A DNA stretch of 40,955 nucleotides from a virus. Every line of letters starts with the position of its first letter. Within the stretch, counting starts at the first letter, position 1. The position numbers and the translations under genes were made by a program. Under the pieces are notes generated by a model. It saw only the letters and a program-made list of their open reading frames with translations, was not told the origin of the DNA and did no database searches. Positions 1 to 36,214 of the stretch are shown one piece after another. The stretch spans positions 1 through 40,955 of the IMG/VR virus record IMGVR_UViG_3300020129_000647; one strand, written 5' to 3'.

Positions 1-1
1 C

Positions 2-2059: not shown

Positions 2060-2075
2060 GAGGAAAGACTGACTG

Positions 2076-3659: not shown

Positions 3660-3665
3660 GTCTGC

Positions 3666-9854: not shown

Positions 9855-9864
9855 GGAGGCAAGT

Positions 9865-12057
9865 ATGGGTCAACCTACACAACCGGGCGGCTACGTTCCC
9901 CCACCGTGGGGCGGGCCGAAGGACGCACGCGGCAACCAGATCGTCCCCAATCCGCCTGCGAGCGGGCCGGCCTTCAATCCGGCGCCCGGTCCGCTCGGCG
10001 ATACCCCACTGGGTTCGGCTCCGCCGGCGACTCCCGAGCCCGGTCCGACACAGGGACCGTCACCGCTCCAGCCGGGCAGCGACCTGTACGACTGGCACTC
10101 CGTCAATACCGCGCTCATCAACGCGAACCTGAACGGGTGGCAGATCGCGGGGAGCAGCCACAGCCCGATCAACCAGGGCAAGTGGGTCTCGAACCCCTCG
10201 TACAACAAGCTGCTCACGCCGCAGGAGAACAAGGACGCGGGCAACGGCGAGGAGTACACCTACCAGCAGGATCCCAACGGCTACGTCGTCGGCGTCACCA
10301 ATCCGGCCACGGGCCAGATGCTCAAGGTCACGCTGTCGAAGCAGCCCGATGCCTCGGGCGGCTACACGTGGGCAGTCACCGGCCGCGAGAACCAGGGCAC
10401 CCTCGACAAGGCGCAGCCCGGCTACACCAGCGTTACGCGGCTGCCGTTCGCCGACGGACACGAGGAGCTGTTCGGTACGAACACGGCAACCGGCGCCTAC
10501 GAGAAGATGCCCAACCAGCCGGCCAACCTGGGCAATCTCAAGGGCTGGAACGACATCCGCCAGATCGAGCAGAACGGCCAGCTCGTCTGGGTCGGTACCA
10601 ATCCCCAGGGCCAGCCGCTGCAGCCGATCCCGAACGCGCCTTCGGTCAACACCGCCAAGTACGTCCCCGGCAGCGTCAAGCAGATCAACCGCAACGGCAA
10701 GCTCGTCTACGTCGGGACGAACGCTCAGACGCAGGCCATCGAGGACATCCCCGAGTACGGCACCGAGACCGCGCCGATCAAGACCACGACGGTGGGCGGC
10801 ACCACCTATAAGGAGAACCCCAACGCCGGTCAGCCCGGCCAGCCCGATTTCGTCCGGGCGACGGGTCTTGCTTCGGCGAACGAGGGCGACACGCAGTGGG
10901 CTGATGCCACCGGCGGCTACCTCAAGCACCAGACCTATCAGAACGGCGCCTGGCACGACGACCCGGACATCCCCCAGCGTCCGTTCAGCCCGGCTTCGCA
11001 ACGGGCCGAGGGCGCGCTCAAGGCCAAGGGCGAGAAGTACTTCACCCCGCTGACGGGCAGTCCCGACACGCTGGTGGAGGTCACTGCCGACGGCAACGGC
11101 GGCTACACGTACGAGATGGGACCGAACGGTGAGCCGCCGCGGACCCAGCGCATCCCCGGTATCCAGCAGCCGCAGACGGTCACCGGCGCGGGTGGAGAAG
11201 AATTTCTGCCGCAGCGACGCGACCCGTATACCCAGCAATTGCTGCCGCTCGAGAAGAACCCGAACTGGTCACCTGCCAACGCCGGCGATCGCGTGCGCCA
11301 ACTGCAGGACCAGGCACGCGCCAAGCAGCAGGAGCTCCACGCCCAGGTCGTCGGCGGTGCGCTGACCGAGGACCAGGCCGACAAGCAGTTCAACGACTGG
11401 TGGGGCACCAGCATCGACCCGTCGATCAAAGAGATCCAGTTCGCCCAGCAGAGCAAGCAGCAGGACCTCGCGCGTTCGAACCTGGCGACGGCCCAGACTG
11501 CCGCGAACGCGATCACGACGGCGACGGCCGGCGAGCACCGTGTGGGGCCCGGTTTCGGTGCCGCGCTGGCGAACATCCAGAACTCGTTCGCCACCGGCAA
11601 GTTCCCGACGCCGATGAGCGCGCAGGATATGACCAACGCGCTGGTCACGCCGGCGCCGGATTACAGCAAGATCTACGAGCAGGCCACGGCCCAGGCGCTG
11701 GCACACATCAGCCCGACCGCGGCCCAGATCGCCACGGGGCAGCCGACGCCGACGGGCCTGCCCCAGAACCTGGACGTGACCGCCCAGTTGAGTCCGAACC
11801 GCTACCTGTTCGGCGGCGGCGCTCAGCCGCCGATGCCGAATCAGCCGGGCCCACCGCCAGTCCCGCAACCGATGCCGAACCCTGCCGCGGCGCCGCCCCC
11901 AGTACCCACCCCGATGCCGATGCCCACGGGGCCGGCAGGAGCGAGCTACGACTGGAATGCCTTGCTGGAGCGTATGAACAGGGACCGGCAGCTCCAGGCG
12001 CAGCAGGCCCAGGTGATGGCCAACTATCAGCCCGCCCCGTACCAACCAGCCTTCTGA
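9865..12057 (+). CDS. Large Gly/Pro/Trp-containing virion protein, hypothetical
   Basis: A 730-residue protein preceded by GAGGAGG (9853-9858) and ATG. The N-terminal 65 residues are Pro/Gly-rich. Residues 70-400 contain aromatic beta-rich repeats: NGQLVWVGTNPQGQPL (about 235) recurs as NGKLVYVGTNAQTQAI (about 272), so there is an internal tandem unit. Residues 470-560 are helical and Gln-rich (QDQARAKQQELHAQVVGG). The C-terminus is again Pro-rich (PMPNQPGPPPVPQP). No catalytic motif is seen. It sits between the ejection protein and the scaffold, so an internal or ejected virion protein is the likeliest role; family not recognised. Confidence 0.6.
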   Translation: MGQPTQPGGYVPPPWGGPKDARGNQIVPNPPASGPAFNPAPGPLGDTPLGSAPPATPEPGPTQGPSPLQPGSDLYDWHSVNTALINANLNGWQIAGSSHSPINQGKWVSNPSYNKLLTPQENKDAGNGEEYTYQQDPNGYVVGVTNPATGQMLKVTLSKQPDASGGYTWAVTGRENQGTLDKAQPGYTSVTRLPFADGHEELFGTNTATGAYEKMPNQPANLGNLKGWNDIRQIEQNGQLVWVGTNPQGQPLQPIPNAPSVNTAKYVPGSVKQINRNGKLVYVGTNAQTQAIEDIPEYGTETAPIKTTTVGGTTYKENPNAGQPGQPDFVRATGLASANEGDTQWADATGGYLKHQTYQNGAWHDDPDIPQRPFSPASQRAEGALKAKGEKYFTPLTGSPDTLVEVTADGNGGYTYEMGPNGEPPRTQRIPGIQQPQTVTGAGGEEFLPQRRDPYTQQLLPLEKNPNWSPANAGDRVRQLQDQARAKQQELHAQVVGGALTEDQADKQFNDWWGTSIDPSIKEIQFAQQSKQQDLARSNLATAQTAANAITTATAGEHRVGPGFGAALANIQNSFATGKFPTPMSAQDMTNALVTPAPDYSKIYEQATAQALAHISPTAAQIATGQPTPTGLPQNLDVTAQLSPNRYLFGGGAQPPMPNQPGPPPVPQPMPNPAAAPPPVPTPMPMPTGPAGASYDWNALLERMNRDRQLQAQQAQVMANYQPAPYQPAF

Positions 12058-12086
12058 AATTGCAGTACGCCTGAAGAGGATCTACG

Positions 12087-12842
12087 ATGCAGCCAACAGA
12101 ACCTTCGAACGTCGAGCCAGCGACGGATGCAGCGGTTACGACCGAGGCGTCTCCCGATCTGAGCGTTCAGCCTTCTCGAGTTTCGTCGTTCCTTCAGCGC
12201 TTGTGGCGTGGTCGGGACGGACGAGCAACTGGAGAAGGGGAAGATGGCCAGACCGAAGGGACCTCGCAGTCACCCGAGACAGCCCGCACGCTCACGCTGA
12301 CGCAGGAGGAGCTCGACAAGCGAATCGACGCGGAGACGCAGCGGCGCGAAGCCAAGCGAGCGCAGCAGCAAACCGCGGAACGACGTCGCAAGCTCCGTGA
12401 CGAGGATCCGTGGGCATTCGCGGAAGAAGAGCGCAATGCCGAGAAGATTGCCGAGATCGACGCGCAAAATACGCAGTGGTTCGGCAATGTCGGAGCAACC
12501 CACGATCGCTTCACGGTCGATCCCGTCGTCCTGGCGTTACCGGAAGCCGAACGCCAGCGCATCCTCAGTCTCGAGGGTGCCGGGCTCGGACTCGACGGTC
12601 GCAAACTGATCGTCGTTGAAAGCTTGAAAGCGCTGGAGAAGCACTGGAAAGCCGAAGGCGAAAAAGCAGCCGAAGGCAAATTGCGGCGCAACCCGGCGTT
12701 CCGCAAGCAAGTTCTGAACGAATTCCGCAGAGGTGTGAGCGAGCCCGAGTTCATCGGGAGCGGGACGCCCTCCGCGGCTGATAGCACCGTCTCGAATCTC
12801 CTTCGAGGCCAGTTGCAAGCACGACACAACGGCATGGGCTGA
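12087..12842 (+). CDS. Probable capsid scaffold/assembly protein
   Basis: A 251-residue, highly charged protein directly upstream of the major capsid gene, the usual place for a scaffold. Residues 1-60 are disordered and acidic/Ser-rich. Residues 65-130 form a long Arg/Glu/Gln coiled coil (TQEELDKRIDAETQRREAKR) followed by DEDPWAFAEEERNAEK. The C-terminal 100 residues are helical with a basic patch (RRNPAFRKQVLNEFRRG), as expected for a capsid-binding helix. Scaffolds guide procapsid assembly and leave before or during packaging. The ATG has GAGGA upstream (12075-12079). No maturation-protease motif is visible. The call is based on composition and synteny. Confidence 0.6.
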   Translation: MQPTEPSNVEPATDAAVTTEASPDLSVQPSRVSSFLQRLWRGRDGRATGEGEDGQTEGTSQSPETARTLTLTQEELDKRIDAETQRREAKRAQQQTAERRRKLRDEDPWAFAEEERNAEKIAEIDAQNTQWFGNVGATHDRFTVDPVVLALPEAERQRILSLEGAGLGLDGRKLIVVESLKALEKHWKAEGEKAAEGKLRRNPAFRKQVLNEFRRGVSEPEFIGSGTPSAADSTVSNLLRGQLQARHNGMG

Positions 12843-12879
12843 GCCAGCAGGCCGGCCCCGTTCATAGAGGGCCACTCTC

Positions 12880-13887
12880 ACGCCATACAACTCCGTCGCC
12901 GGCCGCACCACCCCCGGTGCCTCCCCGCTTATTCCCGAGGACGTCCAGAAGGACATCGTCCAGTCCGTCGAACAGAAAAGCGCCGCGATGCAGCTGATGC
13001 CGCACGTGACGATGAAGCGCGCCCAGCAGCGCATCCCCGTGCTGACCCAGTTGCCGATTGCCTACTGGCTGACAGGTGCATCCCTGGACGCCCGCGACCG
13101 CGGCATGAAGCAAACCACCAGTCTGCAGTGGGACAACGTGTACCTGAACGCCGAGGAAATGGCGGTCATCATCCCGGTCGCCAAATCGTTGCTCGACGAC
13201 CTCGACTACGATTTCTGGACCCAGGTCAAGCCGAAGGTCACCGAAGCCTTTGGCGTGGCACTCGACGAGGCCATTTTTTTCGGTAACGGCGCTCAGGCGA
13301 CGTTCCCCACGGCGATCGTGACGGCCGCCGCCGCGGCGGGCAACCTGCTGGTGGTGGGCGCCACGGCCGGCCAGGACTACGTCGGCGACGTCAACGCGGC
13401 GATGGGCCTGGTCGAGGCCGATGGCTACGACGTCAGCGGCTTCTGGGCACGCAAGCAAGTCAAGGCCAAACTGCGCGGCATGCGCACCACCACTGGCGCG
13501 CTGCTGCTGATGGGCGACGACGCCGGCCCGCAGGCGGCGGTCAATACCGGCACGCTGTTCGGTGAGCCGATCGTCTTCAGCAACGCCGGCCTGGTCGAGT
13601 ACGCCACCGGCGCGACTGGCTACTCGATGATCGGCGGCGAGTGGGACCAGGCGATGCTGGCCATTCGCGAAGACATATCGATGGAAATGTTCGACACCGG
13701 TGTCATCACGGACGCCTCGAACGTGATCCAGTTCAACCTGATGCAGCAGGACATGGTGGCCTTGCGCGTGATCGCTCGCTTTGCCTGGGCCGTGCCCAAC
13801 CCAGTCAACCGCCAACAGCAGACGACTGCGAGCCGCTATCCATTTTTCGCGCTGCAACAGAAGGCGTCCACAGGGGGCGAGACGTAG
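12880..13887 (+). CDS. Major capsid protein, HK97-type, apparent ACG start
   Basis: This is the main shell protein, about 335 residues. The body is typical of the HK97-fold phage capsid family: N-terminal LIPEDVQKDIVQSVEQ, then KRAQQRIPVLTQLP and AYWLTG, a middle ALDEAIFFGNG, and near the end REDISMEMFDT and ALRVIARFAWAVPNP. The first in-frame ATG is only at 12988, which would remove the conserved N-terminal arm. The frame is open back to a TAG at 12865. The best start is ACG at 12880, giving T/M-PYNSVAGRTTPG, with the ribosome site AGAGGG at 12866-12871 eight bases upstream. An ACG start, or an ATG-to-ACG variant or error, fits better than the internal ATG. Confidence 0.85.
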   Translation, partial: TPYNSVAGRTTPGASPLIPEDVQKDIVQSVEQKSAAMQLMPHVTMKRAQQRIPVLTQLPIAYWLTGASLDARDRGMKQTTSLQWDNVYLNAEEMAVIIPVAKSLLDDLDYDFWTQVKPKVTEAFGVALDEAIFFGNGAQATFPTAIVTAAAAAGNLLVVGATAGQDYVGDVNAAMGLVEADGYDVSGFWARKQVKAKLRGMRTTTGALLLMGDDAGPQAAVNTGTLFGEPIVFSNAGLVEYATGATGYSMIGGEWDQAMLAIREDISMEMFDTGVITDASNVIQFNLMQQDMVALRVIARFAWAVPNPVNRQQQTTASRYPFFALQQKASTGGET

Positions 13888-13931
13888 TTGACCGTAATCG
13901 TGTCAATTACGAAGAACGGCGAGGGCTAGCC

Positions 13932-14099
13932 ATGCCGGGTGGGCGAGCTTACAAGAAGCCTGTCAGCAAAGCCCAGGCCAGGTTCTTTGGCGCCGCAGCC
14001 GGGGGCGAGGTCCCCGGCTTCGATCCCAAGGAAGCCCAGAACAAGCTCAAGGGTGTCAGCGAGAAGAAGCTGCCCGAGCGCAAGAAGGGCAAGAAGTAA
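13932..14099 (+). CDS. Small basic head-region protein, hypothetical
   Basis: A 55-residue Lys/Gly-rich protein, MPGGRAYKKPVSKAQARFFG at its start, ending in KKLPERKKGKK. The motif SKAQARFFGA occurs in small proteins of many phages and is often found near head genes; no biochemical role is known to me. ATG is preceded by GAGGG (13921-13925), and the stop TAA overlaps the next ATG (TAATG), indicating coupled translation. A nucleic-acid or capsid-interior contact is possible from the basic charge but is not shown. Confidence 0.6.
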   Translation: MPGGRAYKKPVSKAQARFFGAAAGGEVPGFDPKEAQNKLKGVSEKKLPERKKGKK

Positions 14100-14512
14100 T
14101 GTCCCGCGTCATCTTTCTGACTGATGTGCCCGATGCGAGCGTGCCGACCACGATTTACGGCAAGGACCACCAGGCCGACATCACTGACGAGGCCTGGGTT
14201 CAGGCACGCGTGCGCGAAGGCAAACTGGCGCTGATGGGCGCCGCGATCCGCCAGTCGAGCGTCTCGCCCCTGGGCACCACCACGGCCACGGTCAACTGGT
14301 ACGTCGATCAGCCGTGTACCGCGATGAAAGTGGATTACGGCACAACGACTGCCTACGGTTCGTCCCAGGCCGCCACGCCGGCGGCTGGTAGCGGTGCGAT
14401 CCTGGCCAACCTGACGGGTCTGACGACGGCCACCACGTACCACTACCGCATCTCGGTCACGGTCGGTACGGCGGTCACCCTGTCGGCTGACCTGACGTTC
14501 AGGACGAACTAG
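14099..14512 (+). CDS. Small head protein with C-terminal fibronectin-III-like domain
   Basis: A 137-residue protein in two parts. Residues 1-50 (MSRVIFLTDVPDASVPTTIY, then ITDEAWVQARVREGKLALMG) resemble the start of the two following gene products: an M-x-x-V-x-x-L strand followed by an acidic helix with Trp and R-x-GK. Residues 50-137 look like a fibronectin-III/Ig-like sandwich: TATVNWYVDQP, KVDYGTTTAYG, ANLTGLTTATTYHYRISV, ending LTFRTN. Such domains are common as add-ons on capsid decoration, connector or tail proteins and often bind carbohydrate. This suggests a surface-exposed head or neck protein. Start overlaps the preceding stop by one base. Confidence 0.6.
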   Translation: MSRVIFLTDVPDASVPTTIYGKDHQADITDEAWVQARVREGKLALMGAAIRQSSVSPLGTTTATVNWYVDQPCTAMKVDYGTTTAYGSSQAATPAAGSGAILANLTGLTTATTYHYRISVTVGTAVTLSADLTFRTN

Positions 14513-14521
14513 GAGGCAGAC

Positions 14522-14809
14522 ATGCCAGAAGTTCGATTGTTGGTCCCGATCGCCGATCAGAAGGGCAAGGAGCACGCGGCTGGCTAGGTCATCCACGTCG
14601 ACGACGACACCGCCGAGGCCTGGCGCGCGGCGGGCAAGGTTTCCTTCACGAGCGAGGAGAAGGCCCAGATGAACCAGGCCGGCCACTACTCCGACGTGGT
14701 CGGCCGCTCCGACGTCGGTCAGCCGAACCCTGGCGGCAAGATGCCAGGCCCCCAGGCCGAGACTGAAGACGACGAGGACGACGACAAGCCCAGGAAGGGG
14801 AAGAAGTAA
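14522..14809 (+). pseudogene. Small head protein interrupted by an amber codon
   Basis: The reading frame from ATG 14522 (ribosome site GGAGG at 14512-14516) gives MPEVRLLVPIADQKGKEHAA, then an in-frame TAG at 14585-14587 (codon 22), then continues uninterrupted for 73 codons (VIHVDDDTAEAWRAAGKVSF and an acidic DDEDDD tail, ending KPRKGKK) to a TAA that overlaps the next ATG. The reconstructed 95-residue protein parallels its neighbours, with M-x-x-V-x-x-L at the N-terminus and D-D/E plus W/R and GK motifs. TAG serves as a normal stop elsewhere (1625, 2057, 3657), so codon reassignment is unlikely. It is probably a nonsense variant (GAG or CAG to TAG) in part of the population, a sequencing error, or a leaky stop. 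Confidence 0.6.
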
Positions 14810-15048
14810 TGGCCAGAGTCCGATTCCTGGCGCCAGCCGGCGACCCGCGCCCTGGGCAGGAGGGCATCGTGTATGGGCCGCAGCACGAGACCGACTTCGG
14901 TGACGAGGACGTCGACTACGTCATGTCCTTGTGGCGCGAGGGCAAGGTCGAGATCCTCGACAGCACCGGTCTCACCCCGCCCGCTGGAGACGCGTCAACG
15001 ACGCAGACAAAGGCGAAAACTGAGGAGAAGCCGAAGGCCAAAGAGTGA
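14809..15048 (+). CDS. Small acidic/basic head protein, third of a tandem family
   Basis: A 79-residue protein (MARVRFLAPAGDPRPGQEGI, then DEDVDYVMSLWREGKVEIL) with a Lys/Glu/Thr-rich tail. It shares the plan of the two genes before it: an M-A/x-R-V-x-F/L-L strand, an acidic segment, an aromatic helix and R-x-GK. This suggests local duplication and divergence. It begins one base inside the preceding stop (TAATG) and ends overlapping the GTG of the next gene. A minor head, decoration or head-completion role is possible; family not recognised. Confidence 0.6.
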   Translation: MARVRFLAPAGDPRPGQEGIVYGPQHETDFGDEDVDYVMSLWREGKVEILDSTGLTPPAGDASTTQTKAKTEEKPKAKE

Positions 15049-15962
15049 GCACCACCCTCGCGCAGCTCGAGCAGGAGGTCGCACGCCGCGTCGGTCCGTA
15101 TTACCGTCACTTCACGGACCGCCAGGTGCCGAACACGGCGCAGTTCACTTTCGTCAACGTGCCGACGCTGCGCAGCGAGATGGACCTTGATTCGGTCACC
15201 CACCTGTGGATGCTGCGGCGAGGGATCACCTCGGACGGCACGCCCGTCGTGCTGGACGTCGTCGATCGACTGCGACTGGTGGCCAACTACGACCCCGAAA
15301 TGGGTCGCGTCTACCCGGACCGGCCCTGGAGCGGGATTCCCGTACCCGGTGAGGTCATCGAGTTCCACCATCTCGAGCCCGACCAGGAGCTCCGTCAGAG
15401 TGTGTACGCGGGCCTGCGGCGGTGTTACCTCCCAGACACCGTCCAGGCCCAGCCTACGTCGCTGTACGGGGCCGTCGACTTGACCGCGCAATTCCCCTGG
15501 CTGACTGACCCGTGGCAAATTGCCCAGGTGCGCTACGGCTGGCTGTATCCGTATTCGCACGCGCCGTTCGATACGTACACCAGCATGGGCCATTTGATCC
15601 TGACGGGTGCTTACCCGATGACTTCGCCCATGGCGACCTGGATCGATGCATGGCGCCCGGCCTGGTCATGGGTCAACGGCGCCGAGTCCACGACGGGGCC
15701 GGTGGCGGATACAGACGTGCTCGATGTCGACCTCGACTACGCCGCGAGCGCGGGCCATATCGAGGCGTGGCACCACTTCCCCGCGCGTATGGCTGCTGCA
15801 GCGTCGGCCACGTTGCAAGCGACACGCGAACAAGCGGCGGGCGAGTTCAGCCGGTTGGCGAACGTCTTCGGGCCGCAACGCCCCCAGGAGGTTGGCTTCC
15901 AGCGCATGACCATGGTGGGGAGCTACGGGCGTGGCGGACACGGGGGTTGGGTAAACCGATGA
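15045..15962 (+). CDS. Probable head-tail connector / adaptor protein
   Basis: A 305-residue protein starting with GTG (overlap of four bases with the previous gene). The N-terminal part is helical (TTLAQLEQEVARRVGPYY), the middle mixed alpha/beta with many Trp, Tyr and Pro (VTHLWMLRRGITSDG, YDPEMGRVYPDRPW), and the C-terminus helical (ARMAAAASATLQATREQA). Helical ends around a small barrel, in a gene between head proteins and fibres, fit the adaptor proteins that bind below the portal in short-tailed phages. No sequence signature proves this; a minor tail protein is the alternative. Confidence 0.45.
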   Translation: MSTTLAQLEQEVARRVGPYYRHFTDRQVPNTAQFTFVNVPTLRSEMDLDSVTHLWMLRRGITSDGTPVVLDVVDRLRLVANYDPEMGRVYPDRPWSGIPVPGEVIEFHHLEPDQELRQSVYAGLRRCYLPDTVQAQPTSLYGAVDLTAQFPWLTDPWQIAQVRYGWLYPYSHAPFDTYTSMGHLILTGAYPMTSPMATWIDAWRPAWSWVNGAESTTGPVADTDVLDVDLDYAASAGHIEAWHHFPARMAAAASATLQATREQAAGEFSRLANVFGPQRPQEVGFQRMTMVGSYGRGGHGGWVNR

Positions 15963-16234
15963 TCGACCCGACCATCATCAACGGCCCCGTGCCAATGCTC
16001 GCGCCGGTGGGGCCACCATCATGGTCGCAGGGACCACCCGGCCCACCGGGTCCACAAGGCACGCCAGGCGCACCCTCCACGATCCCCGGCCCTCCGGGCA
16101 CGAATGGCACCAACGGGGCACGCGGCTCACTGTGGTTTCAGGGTTATGGGCCGCCGACCGGGGCGATTGCCGGGGCGCTGCCACAGGACCAGTACCTCGA
16201 TATCTCGACGGGTGACGTGTATGTGTATAGCTGA
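15959..16234 (+). CDS. Collagen-like fibre protein, small
   Basis: A 91-residue protein with a central run of Gly-X-Y triplets (QGPPGPPGPQGTPGAP, then GPPGTNGTNGARG), flanked by a 24-residue head and a tail (DQYLDISTGDVYVYS). The C-terminal GDVYVYS strand is typical of phage tail-fibre modules that end a collagen-like stalk. Such stalks form trimeric triple helices and act as fibre shafts or linkers. ATG overlaps the previous stop (ATGA). It may work together with the fibre gene 10 bases downstream; the pair could be a split fibre. Confidence 0.7.
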   Translation: MIDPTIINGPVPMLAPVGPPSWSQGPPGPPGPQGTPGAPSTIPGPPGTNGTNGARGSLWFQGYGPPTGAIAGALPQDQYLDISTGDVYVYS

Positions 16235-16243
16235 GAACGCCTG

Positions 16244-17086
16244 ATGCCCTGGACGCAGGTAAGCAACCTCAAGGGTCCGGCGGGGGCAGTGGGTGCGAAC
16301 GGCGTGGGCGTCCCGGTGGGTGGCGCCTCGGGCCAGGTGCTGGCGAAAGTGACGGCCACCAACTACGACACCGGCTGGATCACGCCGAGCAGCGGCGTCA
16401 CCATGCCACTCACCCAGCCGATCACGTTCTCGCCCGACAACACCTACGACATCGGCGCGAGCGGAGCCAGCAGGCCCAGGAATCTGTTCGTGGGCGGCAC
16501 GGCTACGGTGGGCAGCACCCTGACTTGCAATGGCAATGCGTCGGTGGCTGGCTTCCTTGATGTACCTACTGTTGGCGGACTGAACGGCGCGGTTGGGTTG
16601 ATGTCTGTTGGAACGGTGCGCTGGCAGATTCCCACCGCCGGCCATTTCCTTGCTGGAGCCGACAACACCTACGACATCGGCGCCAGTGGAGCCAGCAGAC
16701 CCCGCACCATCTACGCCGGCACCAGCGTGGTCACGCCACTGCTGAGTGCAGGAGATGGTTCAGCAGCAGCACCGAGCTACTCGTTCGCTACTTCCCCAAA
16801 TTCAGGGATCTATTGGGGATCGGGTGCCATCCTTACTTTCTCGAATGGAGGCGTCGCACGTTGGGGCGTCCGTAATACCGGGCAGTTCATCCCCTATGGC
16901 GACAACCTGTTTGACATTGGAGATTCACCAACAGTCAATCGCCCCCGCACCATCTACGCCGGCACGTCAGTGATCACGCCCGCGTTAGTGGTTTCTGCTC
17001 CGTCAGCGTTTGCCTCCGGCGACAAGTACCTCGTAGTCTATGCCTCCGGGAACGTCCACAAGAGTGCCATCGGTCCCGCCTCGTGA
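16244..17086 (+). CDS. Tail fibre protein with DIGASGASRPR repeats
   Basis: A 280-residue fibre. A short Gly-rich collagen-like start (NLKGPAGAVGANGVGVPVGG) leads into at least three repeats of the form NTYDIGASGASRPRxxxxG (residues about 65, 145 and 225; the last is diverged as NLFDIGDSPTVNRPR). Between them lie beta-strand rich segments. This type of repeat is common in trimeric beta-helix fibre shafts. The first two repeats are also near-identical at DNA level around 16440-16480 and 16664-16700, giving a substrate for recombination between units. It ends four bases past the GTG of the next gene. Confidence 0.75.
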   Translation: MPWTQVSNLKGPAGAVGANGVGVPVGGASGQVLAKVTATNYDTGWITPSSGVTMPLTQPITFSPDNTYDIGASGASRPRNLFVGGTATVGSTLTCNGNASVAGFLDVPTVGGLNGAVGLMSVGTVRWQIPTAGHFLAGADNTYDIGASGASRPRTIYAGTSVVTPLLSAGDGSAAAPSYSFATSPNSGIYWGSGAILTFSNGGVARWGVRNTGQFIPYGDNLFDIGDSPTVNRPRTIYAGTSVITPALVVSAPSAFASGDKYLVVYASGNVHKSAIGPAS

Positions 17087-17472
17087 CGTTTCCTGCACTG
17101 GTGACCGCCGGCCTGCTGCTGCTGGCGCAGTCGCGCCCCGACCTGTACGACGAGGCCAAACTCGTGTCCATCCGGCCAGCCGACGCGAGCAGCCCCTACG
17201 CCGGCTTCTTCGACCTCGCCCATCCCGAGATCGTCTGGATCAATGCCGAGAACGTCTACAACCCCGAGATGATGCGCGGCCAGTTGGCGCACGAACTCAC
17301 CCACCACCACGACTGGCGCGTGGGCACGCTGACGATGCAGACGTGTGGCGAGGACTACGTCCAGGCTGAGCTACGCGCGTTCCGAGCGCAGTCGGACTGG
17401 CAACCCTGGCAGGAGGGCGTGATGCTCGGTTACGTGCGCGGCAACTACGGAACACTGAGGCCCTGCCCGTGA
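17083..17472 (+). CDS. Small HExxH zinc metallopeptidase-like protein
   Basis: A 129-residue protein with a possible N-terminal signal or membrane segment (FPALVTAGLLLLAQ). The motif GQLAHELTHHHDW gives HELTH with His70, Glu71 and His74 as zinc ligands and catalytic base. A downstream GEDYVQAELRAFRAQ offers Glu90 or Glu96 as third ligand, the gluzincin plan. Cys88 and Cys128 could form a disulfide. It lies among fibre genes, so it might act on host envelope proteins, mature a fibre, or be a virion component. The start is GTG overlapping the fibre stop. Similar small HExxH proteins occur in phage tail regions, with no known substrate. Confidence 0.6.
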   Translation: MTFPALVTAGLLLLAQSRPDLYDEAKLVSIRPADASSPYAGFFDLAHPEIVWINAENVYNPEMMRGQLAHELTHHHDWRVGTLTMQTCGEDYVQAELRAFRAQSDWQPWQEGVMLGYVRGNYGTLRPCP

Positions 17473-17774
17473 AGTCGATCCCGCTGAAGAGCTTGCCCGA
17501 CGAGCGATTCCCCAACGATCCTGCAGGGACCATCGAGTACGCCCAGGTGTTGCGCGACGTGGTCAGGCGCCCTCTCAACCCGCAAGCCGGGGTCAACATC
17601 GCGGAGATGCGCCAGTCACTGCGCGTGCTGGACGCAATCGAGGCGGCCAGCGGCACACTCGAACTGGAGGACGCGGACTACGCCCACCTCACCGAGAAGC
17701 TCGCGGCCATGCAATGGAGTGTCGTTGATCGACGCATTCTCCAGTTGATCGAGGACGTGAGTGCTGCTTCCTAG
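17469..17774 (+). CDS. Hypothetical tail-region protein
   Basis: A 101-residue soluble, acidic-helical protein (IAEMRQSLRVLDAIEAASG, then LELEDADYAHLTEKLAAMQW). The GTG start overlaps the preceding stop by four bases (GTGA). It ends at TAG 17772-17774. No recognised domain. In size, helical content and position it resembles small assembly factors encoded beside tail genes, but this is only context. Confidence 0.55.
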   Translation: MKSIPLKSLPDERFPNDPAGTIEYAQVLRDVVRRPLNPQAGVNIAEMRQSLRVLDAIEAASGTLELEDADYAHLTEKLAAMQWSVVDRRILQLIEDVSAAS

Positions 17775-17929
17775 AGGTCCGGGATGACCCTGCGGCGTAA
17801 CTGGTCGACAGCCACAGCCAGATCGAGCAGCAATCTGGCGTCTTGCTCGTCGCTTTCCCCGATGTGGGCGAGCAGTTGCTCGGCGGTACGCAGCAGGGCA
17901 GTACACGGGTGTTCGGTCATCTCAGCCAT
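17771..17929 (-). CDS. Possible reverse-strand microprotein inside the late operon
   Basis: On the minus strand an ATG at 17929 opens a 52-residue frame (MAEMTEHPCTALLRTAEQLL, ending QLRRRVIPDL) that stops with TAG overlapping the end of the rightward gene. It fills almost exactly the gap between 17774 and the likely GTG start of the next late gene at 17945. Composition is protein-like: an amphipathic helix with Leu/Ala/Asp. The ribosome site is weak (GGA about 5 bases upstream). If the downstream gene instead starts at 17843 this frame is an overlap artefact. Confidence 0.3.
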   Translation of the reverse strand: MAEMTEHPCTALLRTAEQLLAHIGESDEQDARLLLDLAVAVDQLRRRVIPDL

Positions 17930-17944
17930 GAGGTTCCGAGTCTA

Positions 17945-20089
17945 GTGCCCACGCGCAGTAGCAGGGTGCGTCCTTGGCCGTGGGATCTCCGCCTTGCGCT
18001 GGAGGACCTCCCACTTACGGGGCCGCACACGATCGGGGACTTCCGCCCGCTGACCATCGGCCAGTTACGGCCACGGCTGATCGGCAGCACGCGCCAGGCC
18101 AGCCCGCACAAGATCTTCCGCCAGGGGCTGATGCTCGTCCCGACCCAGGCCGGCCTGCTGGTGGGGAAGAAGCAAACCCCACTCAGCCCGTACTTTCCGC
18201 CGGCGCAGGACTACGACTCGGCGCCGCTCTACCACGAGCGGACGTTCATGTTCCGCCCCACGGGCGGTATGGGCGAATCGGTCCAGAGCTCGGCGTCGGA
18301 TCGGCGCTACCACTACGCCATGGACTGCTGGGTCACCGGTGGCCTGTTCGGCAAGGGACCGCTCACCCACCAGATCGTGCCGCCCGCGACCGGGCCGATT
18401 CGGCGTTTCAACGAGGCATTGAACGCCTCGGGCACGCTCGCGCTGTTCGTCCTGGCCGGGCCGAGCGTGCTCGTGCGCGCCGACGACACCAACGCTGGCC
18501 AGACCGCGGTGATCACCCGTGCGGGCCAGGTCGCCACCGACGCGCAACGTTTCAAGGGGGCCTACGCGGGCGCGGTGGACGCGCTCTACGTGGCGTGGAG
18601 CGACGGCACGTTGCAGGAGTACGCCAGCGGGACGACCACGACCTGTGCGCTGCCGTCGGGCTTCAAGCCGAACCTGCTCGAGATCGTCGGCGACGAGCTG
18701 TGGGCGGCCGACTCGGCCGCGTGCATCATTCGCAAAGTCACCAACGATCCCAAGGTCGCCGGCTCGTGGTCGGGGCCGATCCTCGTCGGCAATCCCAGCA
18801 TTCAGATCACCGCGATCCGCCAGACACAGAACCGCCTGGTCATCTTCAAAGCCGACGGCGACCTGTTCACGATCAACGGCGACGGCTCGGACAACGACCT
18901 TTATCCGGGCTTGCAGACCACCGTCGACGTCGACAACGCACGCACTGCCGCGGCCTGGCAGGGCAGCCTGTGGTTCAGGACCGGCAGCGCGTTCTGGCGC
19001 GTGGACATGCAGGGCGGCGCCGTGCTCACGCCCGAGGGGCCCGGCCGCGCGCTCAGCAACCTGTCCGAGGTGCGCGGTCCGGTCCAGGCCTTCGCCGGCT
19101 GGAACAGCCAGATGGCCTTCGGCGCGGTCTTCAACACCAGCACCAACACGAGCTACCTGCTGACCTACGGCAACTGGGAGCCGAACCAGGGCGATACGGG
19201 TACCAGTTACGCTTTCAACAACCAGTGGGACGGCGCGATCGCCCACTGGCCGGGCCGCAGGGTTACCGCGTTGTGGGTCTCGAACATCCCTTCAGATGCA
19301 CGGCTCTACATCGGTTTCGCCGACGGCGGCTACGACTGGATCAAGCTGGTGGCGTTCCCGCTTACGCCCGATTCGGGTGCGGAGTACACGCTGACCGAGA
19401 GCTACATCGTCACTCCGCTCAACCATTTGATGTTCCAGGCGGATAACAAGCAGATCATCGGGGCATCCGTGTTCGGCCCGTTCTTCCCAACCAATGCCGA
19501 GGTCGATTTGAGCTATCGCTTGCGGAGCTCGGCCGGTGCGCCGCCGTCGACGTCCACCGGCGACTTCGTTCCCTGGCCGAACCCGTTTACGTTCAACGGA
19601 GAACGGCTCGACCTGGGCAATGCGGTCGCCAGCACGGCGGTGGAAATCAAGATCAACCTCGACTCGGCCGACACGGTCACCTCGCCCATCCTCGAGGGCA
19701 TCGGGCTGCACGAGCGACTCGTGCCCGCGTTCAAACGCGACTTCACCTTTACCGTGAACGCCCAGGACTACGTGGCGCGCTACGACGGTGCAAGCATCCG
19801 CCAGAGCGGCCGCTCGATTCGGGACATGGTCATGCAGGCGGCAGCCGCGCCGGCTACGGTCGCACTGGAGTTTCCCGACGAGACGGTCTCCAACGTGGCG
19901 CTGTTCGACTACACCGAGCACATGGTCCCGCATTTCGGTCAGGGCGGGCAGGCCGGTCAGGGGTGGAGCCTGGAGATCTCGGCTACCCAATTTAGCGTGA
20001 TCGAGACGCTCGGCATCATCGGTCGTACACGCGGTACGCGCATCGGCGACCTCCGCGGTTTTCACATTTCGCAGACGCGCTTCCTGTAG
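17945..20089 (+). CDS. Large tail protein, probable propeller-type nozzle
   Basis: About 714 residues from GTG 17945; a longer form from 17843 is possible but its first 34 residues (including GGTQQGSTRVFGH) overlap a reverse-strand frame and look non-coding. The middle (residues about 130-420) repeats beta-rich blocks of the type VGDELWAADSAACIIRKV, QNRLVIFKADGDLFTING and WQGSLWFRTGSAFWRV, as in beta-propeller tail proteins. The C-terminal third is jelly-roll-like. Podoviruses use such propellers as the tail nozzle or needle-binding tube (P22 gp10/T7 gp12 analogues). Similarity is structural guesswork from motif rhythm, not a database match. Confidence 0.55.
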   Translation: MPTRSSRVRPWPWDLRLALEDLPLTGPHTIGDFRPLTIGQLRPRLIGSTRQASPHKIFRQGLMLVPTQAGLLVGKKQTPLSPYFPPAQDYDSAPLYHERTFMFRPTGGMGESVQSSASDRRYHYAMDCWVTGGLFGKGPLTHQIVPPATGPIRRFNEALNASGTLALFVLAGPSVLVRADDTNAGQTAVITRAGQVATDAQRFKGAYAGAVDALYVAWSDGTLQEYASGTTTTCALPSGFKPNLLEIVGDELWAADSAACIIRKVTNDPKVAGSWSGPILVGNPSIQITAIRQTQNRLVIFKADGDLFTINGDGSDNDLYPGLQTTVDVDNARTAAAWQGSLWFRTGSAFWRVDMQGGAVLTPEGPGRALSNLSEVRGPVQAFAGWNSQMAFGAVFNTSTNTSYLLTYGNWEPNQGDTGTSYAFNNQWDGAIAHWPGRRVTALWVSNIPSDARLYIGFADGGYDWIKLVAFPLTPDSGAEYTLTESYIVTPLNHLMFQADNKQIIGASVFGPFFPTNAEVDLSYRLRSSAGAPPSTSTGDFVPWPNPFTFNGERLDLGNAVASTAVEIKINLDSADTVTSPILEGIGLHERLVPAFKRDFTFTVNAQDYVARYDGASIRQSGRSIRDMVMQAAAAPATVALEFPDETVSNVALFDYTEHMVPHFGQGGQAGQGWSLEISATQFSVIETLGIIGRTRGTRIGDLRGFHISQTRFL

Positions 20090-26267: not shown

Positions 26268-28124
26268 TCAAACTATGCCATACGCCGCGGCCAGTCGGGA
26301 AACCTTGCGCGGTCCGGGCGTCCCAGCCGGGATCGCAATCTCCGTGACGATGATCAGGTCGTTGTCTTCCTGTTGTTCATTGTCCGTCGCTTCTTGAGAA
26401 GTCCGTGATCGGACCGTCAACATCCCGCCGAGGCGCAGGAACACGCGCAGGTGGGGCAGCTTGTCCTCGCCCGTTCGTACTTCGATACGCGTGACGGCGC
26501 CCTGGATCTGGGCAGCCTTCAGCGCACGCGCCTTGCGGCGCTCCACCGGGCTGGCGGAGGCGCAGCCGGCGTTGATCAGATCCAACTGCTCGGCGATGTC
26601 CGCGGCGCCAATGCTGGCGAGCTCGGCGTGGTTGGCGAGACGGCTGGCTGAACGGAACTGCATGTCTAACGCGGCTTTCTGATTGCGCGGTCCCACCATC
26701 TCTGCGTCGATCTCGGCGAGGCGCTGATCGACCTGGGCTTCTGTCCTCAGACCCTTCTCGCCGTTACGGATCACGCGCGCTCTTTCGGCGTCCAGCCGCG
26801 CCAGGGTCTCGAGCACGACCGCCATCTCGGTCCGAATCTGACGGAGCGTCTCTTCCTGGCTGCGCTGGTCGAGTGCTTCGGCGAGTGCGGTTTGCGGGTC
26901 GCGCAGCATCGTCTCCACTGCCTGCCACACCGCGTCCTCGGTCTCGGTGCCGCGGAGCATCTTCGCGGTACAGCCCTGCCGCGAGCAGTAGTAGTAGACG
27001 TAGGTCACGTCGTACTTCTGGCGCCGCTCGATCCGTCCAGCGAACAGGCGGCCGCACAGGCCGGGCGTCTTGACCGGGCGACCCCACGTCACCCCGTCGT
27101 CGTCGACCACGGCGGTGTGCTCGTGGGGCTCACAGCACACCAGCAGGCGTGTCAACAGGTAATCGTAATGACGATTGCGGCTCGAGTTCTTCTTGTTCTC
27201 GATCAGCGCCGACTGGGCCAATTCCCACGTCTCGGGTGAGACGATGGTGGGCGGCGGGTTCTTCTCCGCGGCTACCCACTCGGTGCCGCCGCTGATCATC
27301 CCGCCCTCGCCCTTGTAGCGAGGGTTGTGGAGCATCAACTGCACGCGGCGGTCAGTCATGCCCCAGCGCTGTGCTTCGCGGAACGCCGACGAGCCGTGGT
27401 AGGCCACGTTGTCGAAGATCTGCTGCACGATCTTGTAAGCCATTTCGTTGGCGCCGGCGACCAGGCTGTCGTCCACGATCAGGTGGCCGTCCTCGTCGGT
27501 CTTCAGTCCGAATGTGCGGCGGCCTCCCACGAACTTGCCCTCCGAAGCCTTCTGACGGCGGCCAGCGGTGGTGCGCTGGAGGATCGCCTCGCGCTCCCAC
27601 TGGTTGATGGCGCCGAGGATGGTGAAGATCATCTGGCCCATCGGCGTCGAGGTGTCGACGTTGAACTCGAGCACTCGCAGGGCTACGCCGTGCGCGCGGA
27701 GAAAGCCCTCGATCTGGATCAGGATCTGAAGCTTGCGCGCCAGGCGATCCAACTTGGTCGCCCACACCACGTCGACCTGGCGGAATGTGCGGCACTGGCC
27801 TTCGCAGCGGATGTCGCCGCGTTCGCAGACCATGCTGACGAGCTGGCGGCCTTCGGGTCGCTGCTCGAGCGGGACAGTGCCGCTGACGCCGTCGTCCCAG
27901 AACTGGGCGACGAGCCGGCGTTGCTGCGCGATCGGCAGGTTGGGATCGTCGCGCGCGTTGATGTCCTTGAGCAGGATCGTCTTCTGCGCGTTGATCGTCT
28001 CGGCTTCCTTCTGGGTCTCGCTGCTGACGCGGCCATAGGCGGCGTCGCGTTCAGGCGACTCGACGAGCACGAGAGGAACGGGCCGCACACGCTGCGCGGC
28101 AGCAGATGTCAGTCTGGGTGCCAT
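26268..28124 (-). CDS. int: Large serine recombinase (phage integrase)
   Basis: A 618-residue integrase. The N-terminal resolvase domain carries the nucleophile Ser34 in AAYGRVSSETQ, and further catalytic features DVVWATKLDRLARKL and LGAINQWEREAILQRTTAGR. The recombinase domain (about 215-330) includes RRTFGLKTDEDGHL and NPRYKGEGGMISGG. A zinc-ribbon follows (LLVCCEPHEHTAV, LCGRLF, YYCSRQGCTAKML), then a coiled coil (ETLARLDAERARVIRNGEKG) as in other large serine integrases. It joins attP and attB without host factors. An unusual N-terminal insertion contains CERGDIRCEGQC. No directionality factor is recognised nearby; the short upstream genes are candidates. It has its own leaderless-type promoter and a terminator. 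Confidence 0.92.
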   Translation of the reverse strand: MAPRLTSAAAQRVRPVPLVLVESPERDAAYGRVSSETQKEAETINAQKTILLKDINARDDPNLPIAQQRRLVAQFWDDGVSGTVPLEQRPEGRQLVSMVCERGDIRCEGQCRTFRQVDVVWATKLDRLARKLQILIQIEGFLRAHGVALRVLEFNVDTSTPMGQMIFTILGAINQWEREAILQRTTAGRRQKASEGKFVGGRRTFGLKTDEDGHLIVDDSLVAGANEMAYKIVQQIFDNVAYHGSSAFREAQRWGMTDRRVQLMLHNPRYKGEGGMISGGTEWVAAEKNPPPTIVSPETWELAQSALIENKKNSSRNRHYDYLLTRLLVCCEPHEHTAVVDDDGVTWGRPVKTPGLCGRLFAGRIERRQKYDVTYVYYYCSRQGCTAKMLRGTETEDAVWQAVETMLRDPQTALAEALDQRSQEETLRQIRTEMAVVLETLARLDAERARVIRNGEKGLRTEAQVDQRLAEIDAEMVGPRNQKAALDMQFRSASRLANHAELASIGAADIAEQLDLINAGCASASPVERRKARALKAAQIQGAVTRIEVRTGEDKLPHLRVFLRLGGMLTVRSRTSQEATDNEQQEDNDLIIVTEIAIPAGTPGPRKVSRLAAAYGIV

Positions 28125-28161: not shown

Positions 28162-28308
28162 GCGAAGGCCGCGGTAGTCGCTCAGCAGGTGGAGTCCCCA
28201 GTAGTGGAGGACGGGGTGGTCAGACTCCACCAGGCGCAGTCCCATCACGCGCATGGCTTCGATGACGTCGAGGTCGAGATCGAGCGTCTCGACCGTCGGC
28301 TCGTTCAC
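28138..28308 (-). CDS. Small protein upstream of integrase, hypothetical
   Basis: 56 residues from GTG 28308 (overlapping the previous TGA): MNEPTVETLDLDLDVIEAMR, then LVESDHPVLHYWGLHLLSDY and a basic end. Acidic N-terminus, helical and Leu-rich C-terminus. It ends 13 bases before the integrase start. Small genes directly beside serine integrases sometimes encode recombination directionality factors, and this is one of two candidates here; there is no motif to prove it. Confidence 0.5.
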   Translation of the reverse strand: MNEPTVETLDLDLDVIEAMRVMGLRLVESDHPVLHYWGLHLLSDYRGLRLLAEKYS

Positions 28309-28463
28309 GCTGCCGGCGTCTGTTCGCGTTCGGCCGCGCGCCGTTCGAGGATCGCGTCGATCAGGAGCTGCAGACAGGCGATGTACGCCCGCCGGCCTTC
28401 CTCAGGGTCGGGGTTGAGGACGACCTCGTCGATGACCGGTGGCGGCGCCGGCTTCCTGGGCAT
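28305..28463 (-). CDS. Small protein, first gene of the integrase operon
   Basis: 52 residues from ATG 28463: MPRKPAPPPVIDEVVLNPDP, then GRRAYIACLQLLIDAILERR and AAEREQTPAA. A Pro-rich N-terminus and an amphipathic helix. Its stop overlaps the next GTG. It faces the control region with the phased TGACGA repeats. Candidate directionality factor or regulator; family not recognised. Confidence 0.5.
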   Translation of the reverse strand: MPRKPAPPPVIDEVVLNPDPEEGRRAYIACLQLLIDAILERRAAEREQTPAA

Positions 28464-28467: not shown

Positions 28468-28490
28468 CAAGTGTGCGCACGGCACGCTTG
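28468..28490. promoter_or_regulatory. Inverted repeat upstream of the integrase operon
   Basis: CAAGTGTGC (28468-28476) and GCACGCTTG (28482-28490) form an inverted repeat with one mismatch around GCACG, just upstream of the ATG at 28463. Its outer arm touches the TGACAA box at 28488. It could be an operator for the leftward operon, or an RNA hairpin blocking translation. Confidence 0.45.
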
Positions 28491-28515
28491 TCACGGTTCG
28501 TCATCCACGTCGTCA
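28488..28515 (-). promoter_or_regulatory. Phased TGACGA array facing the integrase operon
   Basis: On the minus strand TGACGA (28515-28510), TGACGA (28503-28498) and TGACAA (28493-28488) have starts spaced 12 and 10 bases, the same spacing as at 29388-29415. The sequence ATGACGAACCGTGACAA matches 14 of 17 positions of the rightward copies. Direct repeats one helical turn apart are the usual sign of a regulator binding one face of the DNA. Confidence 0.65.
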
Positions 28516-28583
28516 CGTATTGAGGGGGGGCATGCATTGTGCTTTTGTTTTATCGTTAGCATTCTGATTCTCAATCGTGTCCC

Positions 28584-28634
28584 TGACACCCTCGTGAGAC
28601 ATCGGTCTGACGAGCGGTTGACGAACGCTGACAA
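28584..28634 (+). promoter_or_regulatory. Phased TGACGA array, rightward control region
   Basis: Five related hexamers, TGACAC (28584), TGAGAC (28595), TGACGA (28608), TGACGA (28619) and TGACAA (28629), have starts spaced 11, 13, 11 and 10 bases. The last 17 bases, TTGACGAACGCTGACAA (28618-28634), recur exactly at 29399-29415. The end GACAAT also resembles a -10 with CTGACG 17 bases upstream, so the array may overlap an early promoter. It lies 170 bases upstream of the first rightward gene. Confidence 0.65.
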
Positions 28635-28804
28635 TCCTGGAGGCACACACTACAGAACAGGCGTCCGGGGCTCGGGTTGGAGTAAACGAGGCCTGGTGCT
28701 AGCGATATAGGCAACAGGTTCCTGGGCAGTAGCGAGGACGCTGGGCGGGAAGCGGTGACCCTGGCTACGTCTGTGAGCGCAGTTCGTCTCTGGGGAGGGT
28801 TTCC
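28635..28804. other. Leader of the rightward early operon, no gene seen
   Basis: 170 bases between the phased repeat array and the first early gene. I see no convincing gene on either strand. A TATAGG-like box occurs near 28707 and a strong ribosome site GGGGAGGG at 28792-28799. Just upstream, 28515-28580 is unusually AT-rich for this genome (TTTTGTTTTATCG), which may ease melting at the divergent promoters or contain the attP site. Confidence 0.4.
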
Positions 28805-29398
28805 TTGGAGCCGTTTGATGCATTCGACCAGCCGCACATGTTCCCCGAGCTACGCCTCGAGCTCACTCCACGCGCGCTGCGTGACCAGCTCGAGACGTTA
28901 CCAATGCACGAGCGCAAGATCATCGAACGCGCGTGGGAGTGTGTGGAGCAGCACTACCGCAGCACACGGACACGTCTCGAGCGATTCGATCTCGAGTACC
29001 TGCTCGGCAAGTACATCGACAAGCCGAAGAGCCTGAGCACGTTCGACCGCGCGCATCGCAAGTACCCGCTGCTGTTACCGTGGCCGATCGAGTACGGCAT
29101 GGGTCGTCCGTGGGAGCAACCCGACGTGACGCCGCTGGTGATGAAACCCGAGGACGAGATCGCGGCCGGCCAACTGATCCTCGACGAGCATGGCGCGCAC
29201 GTCCTGGAACAGGACGGGACGAAGCGGCCGGCGCGGCTGATCGCCGGCAGCAACGGCACGGTGCGGTGGATGACCTCGTCGCTGGCCGCGGCGATCTCAG
29301 GCTTTGCGCTGCTCGACGGCATGGACGGCAAGCTCGACGGCGCCATCCACTGGTGCCACGTGCTCGCCGAGATGCTGGCGCCCCATTTGACGATGTAA
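28805..29398 (+). CDS. First early gene, hypothetical
   Basis: A 197-residue protein from TTG 28805, five bases after the ribosome site GGGGAGGG. N-terminus MEPFDAFDQPHMFPELRLEL, then helical (PMHERKIIERAWECVEQHYR, RTRLERFDLEYLLGKYID), a proline/aromatic middle (YPLLLPWPIEYGMGRPWEQP) and an alpha-helical Ala/Leu end. No motif recognised. The end of its coding sequence carries part of the next TGACGA array (TTGACGATGTAA). As the first early product it may help host takeover or gene control. Confidence 0.55.
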   Translation: MEPFDAFDQPHMFPELRLELTPRALRDQLETLPMHERKIIERAWECVEQHYRSTRTRLERFDLEYLLGKYIDKPKSLSTFDRAHRKYPLLLPWPIEYGMGRPWEQPDVTPLVMKPEDEIAAGQLILDEHGAHVLEQDGTKRPARLIAGSNGTVRWMTSSLAAAISGFALLDGMDGKLDGAIHWCHVLAEMLAPHLTM

Positions 29399-29415
29399 TT
29401 GACGAACGCTGACAA
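29388..29415 (+). promoter_or_regulatory. Phased TGACGA array before the RHH-like gene
   Basis: TGACGA (29388), TGACGA (29400) and TGACAA (29410) repeat at 12- and 10-base spacing and include an exact copy of TTGACGAACGCTGACAA. It overlaps the end of 28805-29398 and precedes the ATG at 29440 by 25 bases, so it is well placed to control that gene and those after it. Confidence 0.65.
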
Positions 29416-29439
29416 GTCGGGCCTGCGCACACTCGGCGC

Positions 29440-29661
29440 ATGCCCGCAGTCAAGCCCGTCATCACCGAGTACGACCTCGGATCCGCAGGGTGGAGGACGC
29501 TGCACGAGCTGGCTCGTCAGCGGCGGCGTTCTCCGAAAGACCAGGTCCGCGCGCTGGTGCTGTACGCGCTCGAGCGCGCGCTCGCCGGCGTCGACGTCGA
29601 GCTGAGCCAGCACAAGCTCGAGACGCTGCTCGAGCGTCCCGACCTCGAGCCGGTGGCATAG
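29440..29661 (+). CDS. Ribbon-helix-helix-like small DNA-binding protein
   Basis: 73 residues. WRTLHELARQRRRSPKDQVR followed by ALVLYALERALAG fits the RHH helix pair, L..LA...GRS..DQ.RALLL.AL, as found in Arc/CopG/FitA-like proteins; the preceding strand (VKPVITEYDLG) is less clear. RHH proteins often bind direct repeats spaced by about one turn, which is just what lies 25 bases upstream of this gene. So an autoregulator and switch protein is a good hypothesis. It is followed immediately by the Gp157-like gene. Confidence 0.55.
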   Translation: MPAVKPVITEYDLGSAGWRTLHELARQRRRSPKDQVRALVLYALERALAGVDVELSQHKLETLLERPDLEPVA

Positions 29662-35526: not shown

Positions 35527-35761
35527 GCGGTGTGCGTTGGGGTGCCGCATGCTCAAAGTCATAGACGAGCTGTGGTTGTGTCCGCACAGCGCGTGGGGCC
35601 CGGCTGCGCACATGGACGACGTCGTGGCGGAAGCGAGAGCCGATCTGGACGCGGAAGGCGGCTACGGAATGGCACTGGCTCGGCTCGAGGCCGACGAAGC
35701 GGCTCGAGCCGAGGTACAGCGACTACGGGTAGCGCGACGCAAAAGTGCGGGAGCTAACTGA
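35519..35761 (+). CDS. Small cysteine/helix protein, last early gene
   Basis: 80 residues from GTG 35519: VPKRCALGCRMLKVIDELWL, then CPHSAWGPAAHMDDVVAEAR and a helical basic end (LRVARRKSAGAN). Cys/His spacing (C..C..CPH) might hold zinc. It runs to 35761 and overlaps the end of the reverse-strand HTH gene, so the two operons meet tail to tail there. No known family. Confidence 0.5.
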   Translation: MPKRCALGCRMLKVIDELWLCPHSAWGPAAHMDDVVAEARADLDAEGGYGMALARLEADEAARAEVQRLRVARRKSAGAN

Positions 35762-35996
35762 AACCGAGCGCACTTGCCAGAGGTGCGACTGGTTCGGCTT
35801 CGAGCTGACGCTCGAGCTCGCGCAGGGTCAGGTACAGGAACGCCGGCATCGCTCGCGTACCGAGCTCCCAACGTGCCACGGTGAGCCGGGTAACGCCGAG
35901 CTCTTCTCCGAGGGCACGTTGAGACAGACCGTGGCGGAGGCGCCACTCACGTAAGTCCGCGCGCTGTTCCGCGGGGGTGGTGGGTAGCATCGTCAT
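35754..35996 (-). CDS. Small HTH transcription regulator (Cro/CI type)
   Basis: 80 residues from ATG 35996, overlapping the stop of the membrane gene (ATGA). The HTH_3/XRE pattern is clear: LREWRLRHGLSQRALGEELG, VTRLTVARWELGTRAMPAFL, the second helix ending in the recognition helix RLTVARWE. Last gene of a leftward operon whose promoter overlaps the palindrome TATCCGaCGGATA, so it likely represses its own operon and may set lysogeny. Too short for a peptidase-type CI repressor. Confidence 0.75.
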   Translation of the reverse strand: MTMLPTTPAEQRADLREWRLRHGLSQRALGEELGVTRLTVARWELGTRAMPAFLYLTLRELERQLEAEPVAPLASALGFS

Positions 35997-36214
35997 GGCC
36001 GGGCGAGCCATTCTCCGAAGCGGCACAGGCCGGGCCACACGAACATGCTGCAGACGACCCAGAGCACGGTACCGATGAACAGCGCTGGCAGCATCCACGT
36101 AAAGACGCCGACGAACACGGAACCGGGCGGCCAGTCATTTGCGAACAGATGCCAGACGATAGGCCAGGTCCAGAACGCTACGCCAACGATCAAGGCGAAT
36201 CGTTGAACGGTCAT
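35993..36214 (-). CDS. Two-helix membrane protein
   Basis: 73 residues: MTVQRFALIVGVAFWTWPIV, then PPGSVFVGVFTWMLPALFIG and TVLWVVCSMFVW. Two transmembrane segments and a short soluble Trp/Arg-rich end. Coupled to both neighbours by ATGA overlaps. Prophage-encoded small membrane proteins in a repressor operon often mediate superinfection exclusion; that is conjecture here. Confidence 0.55.
   Translation of the reverse strand: MTVQRFALIVGVAFWTWPIVWHLFANDWPPGSVFVGVFTWMLPALFIGTVLWVVCSMFVWPGLCRFGEWLARP

Follow-up and report, generated by a model that had tools for sequence, protein, structure and literature searches.

Phased TGACGA repeats before the integrase, early and small-protein genes of a soil phage: candidate operators of a small RHH-like protein

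Which protein reads a set of near-identical repeat arrays at the regulatory locus of a soil phage, and does it switch the adjoining genes on or off? The window, i.e. the whole stretch of DNA analysed, is a single IMG/VR phage record of 40,955 bases, described as that of a soil phage. It carries three arrays with the pattern TGACGA-N5/6-TGACGA-N4-TGACAA, all of them exact matches. A preliminary description had proposed that they constitute an operator system for a lysis-lysogeny switch, with the ribbon-helix-helix (RHH)-like product of the gene starting at position 29440 (the 29440 gene) as a possible switch protein. The features on which the argument rests are the following.

26268 to 28124, minus strand: large serine recombinase (integrase; phrog_95, 8.8e-57; Pfam Resolvase, 2e-26)
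28305 to 28463, minus strand: 52-aa ORF (MPRKPAPPPVIDE...) with which the integrase operon begins; relatives have an MPRKxxPP-type ORF in this position
28470 to 28475, minus strand: -10-like CACACT, separated from array 1 by 12 bp and from the following ATG by 6 bp; relatives have CACACT or CAGACT here
28488 to 28515, minus strand: array 1, TGACGA-N6-TGACGA-N4-TGACAA, exact match, putative operator of the leftward (integrase) operon; G026 and G028 have a counterpart in the same position
28608 to 28634, plus strand: array 2, TGACGA-N5-TGACGA-N4-TGACAA, exact match, preceding the rightward early operon; counterparts in G026 and G028
28646 to 28651, plus strand: -10-like CACACT, 11 bp after array 2; at the same distance CATAAT in G026 and AACAAT in G028
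28655 to 28666, plus strand: GAACAGGCGTCC, tentatively a degenerate form of the LexA-box-like palindrome TAGAAC-N4-GTTCTA known near the early promoter of most relatives
28805 to 29398, plus strand: P0003, first early gene, 197 aa, no family match; the 3' end of the gene runs into the first unit of array 3
29388 to 29415, plus strand: array 3, TGACGA-N6-TGACGA-N4-TGACAA, exact match, putative operator of the 29440 gene; counterparts in G026, G028 and G011
29428 to 29433, plus strand: -10-like CACACT, separated from array 3 by 12 bp and from the ATG of the 29440 gene by 6 bp
29440 to 29661, plus strand: 73-aa RHH-like protein, best candidate for binding the arrays; homologs in all type-A phages (see below), other small RHH-like genes at this locus elsewhere
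35754 to 36098, minus strand: XRE-type regulator with a clear HTH, oriented opposite to the rightward genes; weak CII-like PHROG match (E 0.008)

The rightward genes follow in the order P0003, the 29440 gene, a Gp157/Gam-like gene, primase/helicase and exonuclease, and leftward a further short ORF lies between the 52-aa ORF and the recombinase. In nearly all relatives that share this integrase, the integrase operon begins with a leaderless-looking 52-aa ORF of the MPRKxxPP type, which may possibly encode a recombination directionality factor or a small regulator. Two genome scans gave no close relative of the integrase by which a host could be identified, and megablast with bases 1-20000 of the window against phage records returned no matches.

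All nine main TGACGA/TGACAA units that had been proposed were confirmed, with strands and spacings: 28515, 28503 and 28493 on the minus strand in array 1 (spacing 12 and 10), 28608, 28619 and 28629 on the plus strand in array 2 (11 and 10), and 29388, 29400 and 29410 on the plus strand in array 3 (12 and 10). When up to three mismatches were allowed the three arrays were the sole matches in the window, compared with 0.02 and 0.03 matches expected from dinucleotide shuffles for the two spacings. Lone TGACRA hexamers showed no clear enrichment (43 in the window versus about 36 expected), and two-unit forms with at most one mismatch all fell inside the arrays, apart from one site at 39167, so that the signal is the phased triplet and not the hexamer. 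A matrix trained on the relatives G026 and G028 alone, with the window left out, scored 33.6 bits for each window array and 10.6 for the next-best window site; with the same matrix, 200 shuffled windows gave a mean maximum of 11.6 and a largest value of 30.2. A chance origin of the arrays is ruled out by the shuffles together with the conservation described below. Two weaker units had also been proposed. The sequence at 28584 is TGACAC and that at 28595 TGAGAC; by eye neither has a counterpart in the two closest array-bearing relatives, and they are therefore probably outside the operator. A scan of the collection found the exact pattern in five viral contigs, at apparently unrelated places and without the downstream promoter pattern, and the reading of a widespread motif was therefore rejected.

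A terminase search yielded 77 loci, and 35 related records were examined for the arrays. The pattern TGACGA-N5/6-TGACGA-N4-TGAC was present in two of the 35, G026 and G028, with two copies in each, one before the homolog of the 29440 gene and one before the primase gene; looser copies precede the integrase operons and the early operons of both. Across the window the phased arrays are confined to three sites, with counterparts in related phages. The proposal is supported in that the arrays are conserved operator-type elements and in that the integrase operon, the early operon and the 29440 gene are each marked by one of them. In G011, where the small protein is 60% identical to the 29440 protein, three-unit sites occur with the order of spacings reversed (10 then 12). 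L007, found via its Gp157-like gene, has a different integrase and no array. A 50% identical homolog of the 29440 protein in G021 (L092; 817-996, minus strand) lies in a different gene setting without arrays, so the pairing of small protein and operator is not universal.

To what extent operator and small protein change together was seen in ten phages with both promoters readable, namely the window and nine relatives (records of the same integrase family, plus G011 and L138). The same layout is kept in all ten: the integrase-operon and small-gene promoters carry a common, phage-specific operator at an equal distance from the start codon. The in-register similarity of the two promoters averaged 14.8 within a phage and 5.0 between types, and none of 20,000 permutations was as good, a result which is not a strict probability because the phages are related. 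In a free offset scan from -25 to +25 the best offset was within 2 bp in 10/10 phages, of which G006 and G024 are near-identical; G005 was weak in offset scan and operator sharing (score 7 versus 6). The small proteins at the locus, of 54-74 residues, fall into at least four unrelated-looking types, all with a strand-helix-helix pattern by eye:

Type A: the window, G026, G028 and G011
Type B: G006, G024, G002 and L138
Type C: G005
Type D: G003

The operators are TGACGA triplets in type A and CTGRC-N4-CTGRC pairs (such as CTGAC-N4-CTGAC) in type B, and types C and D have different ones. An eleventh phage, the 28.6-kb fragment G036 (L174), has a type-B small gene preceded by GCACTGACCAGACTGACGAC-N20-CATACT-N6-ATG, to be compared with GCACTGACCGGACTGACGTC-N20-CAGACT-N7-ATG upstream of the small gene of G006. 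The genes preceding the small gene differ from those of G006. The PAS-like gene that comes first among the early genes in type B was not detected in the fragment, which may not include it. Since G036 has the type-B operator and small gene without a detectable PAS-like gene, the operator goes with the small gene, and this case together with the change of operator with small protein makes the small RHH-like protein the best candidate binder. From the sequence comparison the arrays are very probably binding sites of the 29440-type protein, which would coordinate early genes.

The suggestion that the 29440 product is an RHH-like regulator thus stands in part: the relatives, G036 included, point to it as the cognate regulator, but no RHH family or structure match was obtained. 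The protein had no meaningful match in Pfam, PHROG, NCBIfam or PDB, and neither a family model nor a solved structure placed it significantly in the RHH (MetJ/Arc) group. An AF2 model of the monomer, of low confidence (pLDDT 62.6), has an N-terminus without helix followed by helices at residues 10-27 and 32-48, and a fold search with it gave nothing significant. The type-B small protein matched RHH_4 at E 0.13 only. An RHH fold of the 29440 protein is hence unproven. For P0003 the AF2 model was likewise of low confidence and the fold search uninformative.

Other regulator-like genes occur in most relatives, namely a leftward RHH or XRE gene and an XRE gene of the 35754 type; some reading frames of the latter have internal stops. 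In type-B phages the stretch from the integrase operon to the early promoter contains a further small RHH-like gene, oriented leftward (L117, L118, L119 and L120; MLDAVVGEK... or MIEELVGEK...), the product of which had CopG as best PDB match (E 0.1). At the corresponding place G005, G011 and L138 have an apparent XRE-like gene, and none is found in the window, G026 or G028. The first early gene of type-B phages (L131:3547-4368, minus strand) matches PAS_9 with E 1.8e-05, which falls below Pfam's cut-off; this PAS-like domain may represent a sensor encoded among phage early genes.

An element that was absent from the preliminary description, the -10-like CACACT, lies 11 or 12 bp downstream of every array. 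Arrays 1 and 3 are followed by N12-CACACT-N6-ATG, where the ATG is that of the 52-aa ORF (at 28463) and of the 29440 gene, respectively, and array 2 by N11-CACACT without an ATG. The two former arrays thereby occupy -52 to -25 relative to their ATGs, and the ATG placed 6 bp past CACACT suggests leaderless transcripts from the promoters of the 52-aa ORF (integrase operon) and the 29440 gene. CACACT also forms the putative -10 at the small genes of G026 and G028 and at the G026 primase gene, and the CATAAT and AACAAT found at N11 of the early promoters in G026 and G028, respectively, support the -10 assignment.

Counted from the putative -10, the units of type A start at -40, -28 and -18 (about -38/-39, -27 and -17 with the 11-bp spacer). 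The operators of type B extend from about -51 to -33 relative to the proposed start, as compared with -52 to -25 for the type-A arrays. A -35 element at 16-18 bp from the -10 showed no excess (2.06 matches versus 2.20 at random, with a consensus that may not be that of the host). TTGACG or CTGACA as canonical -35 was rejected, the spacers to CACACT being 23 or 13 bp, which is not an ordinary sigma-70 pair. At the type-B early promoter the operator lies a few bp closer to its putative -10; a CTGACG placed like a -35 stands 18 bp from the -10-like element, adjoined by the TAGAAC-N4-GTTCTA palindrome.

This palindrome, with a GAAC-N4-GTTC core resembling the Gram-positive/actinobacterial LexA box, lies beside the early promoter in most relatives (L121:2709; L118:2305; L122, 2533 on the reverse complement), also in the more distant L007 (2202) and in degenerate form at 28655 in the window. 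Through it the early genes may be coupled to the SOS response of the host.

The reading that we favour, with a probability of about 0.5, is that the arrays are operators of a phage regulator, most likely the 29440 RHH-like protein, which acts as a class-II activator of leaderless promoters. At the integrase promoter and at that of the 29440 gene it would occupy, in head-to-tail orientation and perhaps cooperatively, the region from -52 to -25, where the three units follow each other at about one helical turn. Thus placed it would adjoin a weak -10 (CACACT) without a -35 and recruit RNA polymerase from the class-II position, giving rise to leaderless transcripts. Its targets would be the first early operon, the integrase operon and, together with the genes that follow, its own gene; in G026 and G028 the primase gene would join this regulon. 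The expected outcome is a positive feedback that commits early transcription and the integrase/excision functions. The rigid spacing at two promoters across unrelated operators, combined with the weak -10, suits a class-II activator, and a -35 not above chance favours activation. A lysis-lysogeny switch, as originally suggested, is a plausible reading.

Repression comes close behind activation, though it is the less probable of the two. Here the same operators and the same RHH-like protein would form a multi-promoter repressor system: by covering the -35 region the protein would repress its own promoter and those of the early, integrase and replication genes, either as a lysogenic repressor or as a Cro-like autorepressor. 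Sites before early lytic genes, the integrase and the candidate's own gene suit such a role, as does the CTGACG/palindrome layout of the type-B early promoter; the window, G026 and G028 are, unlike other relatives, without another repressor gene between the integrase operon and the early promoter; and characterised phage RHH proteins, e.g. Arc and Mnt, are repressors. On the other hand, neither identical base-pair-level geometry at two promoters across unrelated operator types nor promoters without a -35 are expected of a simple repressor.

That a different phage protein binds the arrays, either P0003 or the 35754 XRE protein, appears improbable. P0003 relatives and the type-A small protein occur in the same phages, and P0003 co-varies with the operator type where both promoters are present, so that within type A the two are indistinguishable as binders; however, in G036 the type-B operator accompanies the type-B small gene with no PAS-like preceding gene detected. 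The 35754 protein has its clear HTH in its favour, but relatives of it are present in 25 of the 35 records, most of them without an array, as against the exact array in two, which makes it the weaker candidate.

It is very unlikely that the arrays serve an excisionase-like (Xis/Cox/Apl) protein with a double role in DNA bending for recombination and in the regulation of early promoters, even though three head-to-tail units at 10-12 bp resemble the Apl repeats of phage 186 (PMC7498355). The arrays stand at three promoters, one of them 0.8-0.9 kb from the others, and neither the 29440 nor the P0003 protein matched an Xis/Cox excisionase family. The integrase is moreover a serine recombinase, and the directionality factors of serine recombinases usually act on the integrase, not on arrayed sites. 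Least probable of all is binding by a host protein of the OmpR/PhoB or SARP kind. Such regulators read 11-bp direct repeats just upstream of the -10, and their pho-box and SARP promoters are matched here in repeat spacing and position, but the operator sequence varies among related phages and tracks a phage gene.

In the arrays and the 29440 protein, a group of temperate soil phages known without cultures offers a candidate pair of regulator and operator that is directly testable. The four operator types, with partner proteins of 54-74 residues and one pair in another gene context in G036, provide a natural series for co-changing specificity. Tentatively, these may be exchangeable specificity modules: a group of soil siphophages would use a tiny, fast-diverging RHH-like class-II activator of leaderless, -35-less promoters (its own and those of the integrase operon, early and replication genes), with a matching operator for each type, to carry out a CII-like task by an unrelated fold. 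If activation holds true, the system would be an unrelated-fold counterpart of lambda CII at leaderless promoters.

How does this arrangement compare with known systems? In lambda the CII-activated promoters pI, pRE and paQ contain TTGC-N6-TTGC direct repeats, and CII is a helix-turn-helix tetramer. Both systems have direct repeats with a period of 10 bp on either side of the -35 position of weak promoters, among them the one that drives the integrase gene, and a regulon of three promoters. As in CII-type promoters the repeats here flank or overlap the -35 position at a fixed distance from the inferred -10, with the same offset at both promoters of each phage. The differences are three TGACRA units, a small RHH-like candidate, putative leaderless starts and an operator also before the candidate's own gene; neither the 29440 nor the P0003 protein matched CII homologs.

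The Apl protein of phage 186 binds cooperatively to direct repeats with 10-11 bp spacing between the early promoters and represses them (PMC7498355). The sites of Apl, P2 Cox and lambda Xis (PMC7498355) likewise consist of direct repeats in head-to-tail order, spaced by about one turn and located at early promoters of the phage; the spacings here are 12/10, 11/10 and 12/10 bp, and 10/12 in G011. Those proteins, however, are winged-helix excisionases of tyrosine-integrase phages with their att sites, whereas the present locus has no such family match, a serine integrase and a fixed distance from operator to -10.

Among RHH proteins AmrZ illustrates that both activation and repression are within reach of the family (PMC3325190). 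The 29440 protein is like Arc, Mnt, CopG and AmrZ in its small size, its apparent N-terminal strand pattern followed by two predicted helices and the site before its own gene; however, it gave no significant sequence or fold match, and three-unit direct repeats at -52 to -25 differ from AmrZ sites. Cluster A mycobacteriophages possess stoperators, single asymmetric 13-bp sites with up to 30 per genome, at which the repressor also stops elongation (PMC6550527). They resemble the present group in that many phages each have their own regulator with a matching operator variant (PMC6550527), and differ from its three triple arrays, which are found at promoters only. By analogy, the closest parallels would thus be lambda CII for the geometry, Apl/Cox/Xis for the style of the repeats, and the cluster A stoperators for the diversification of regulator and operator.
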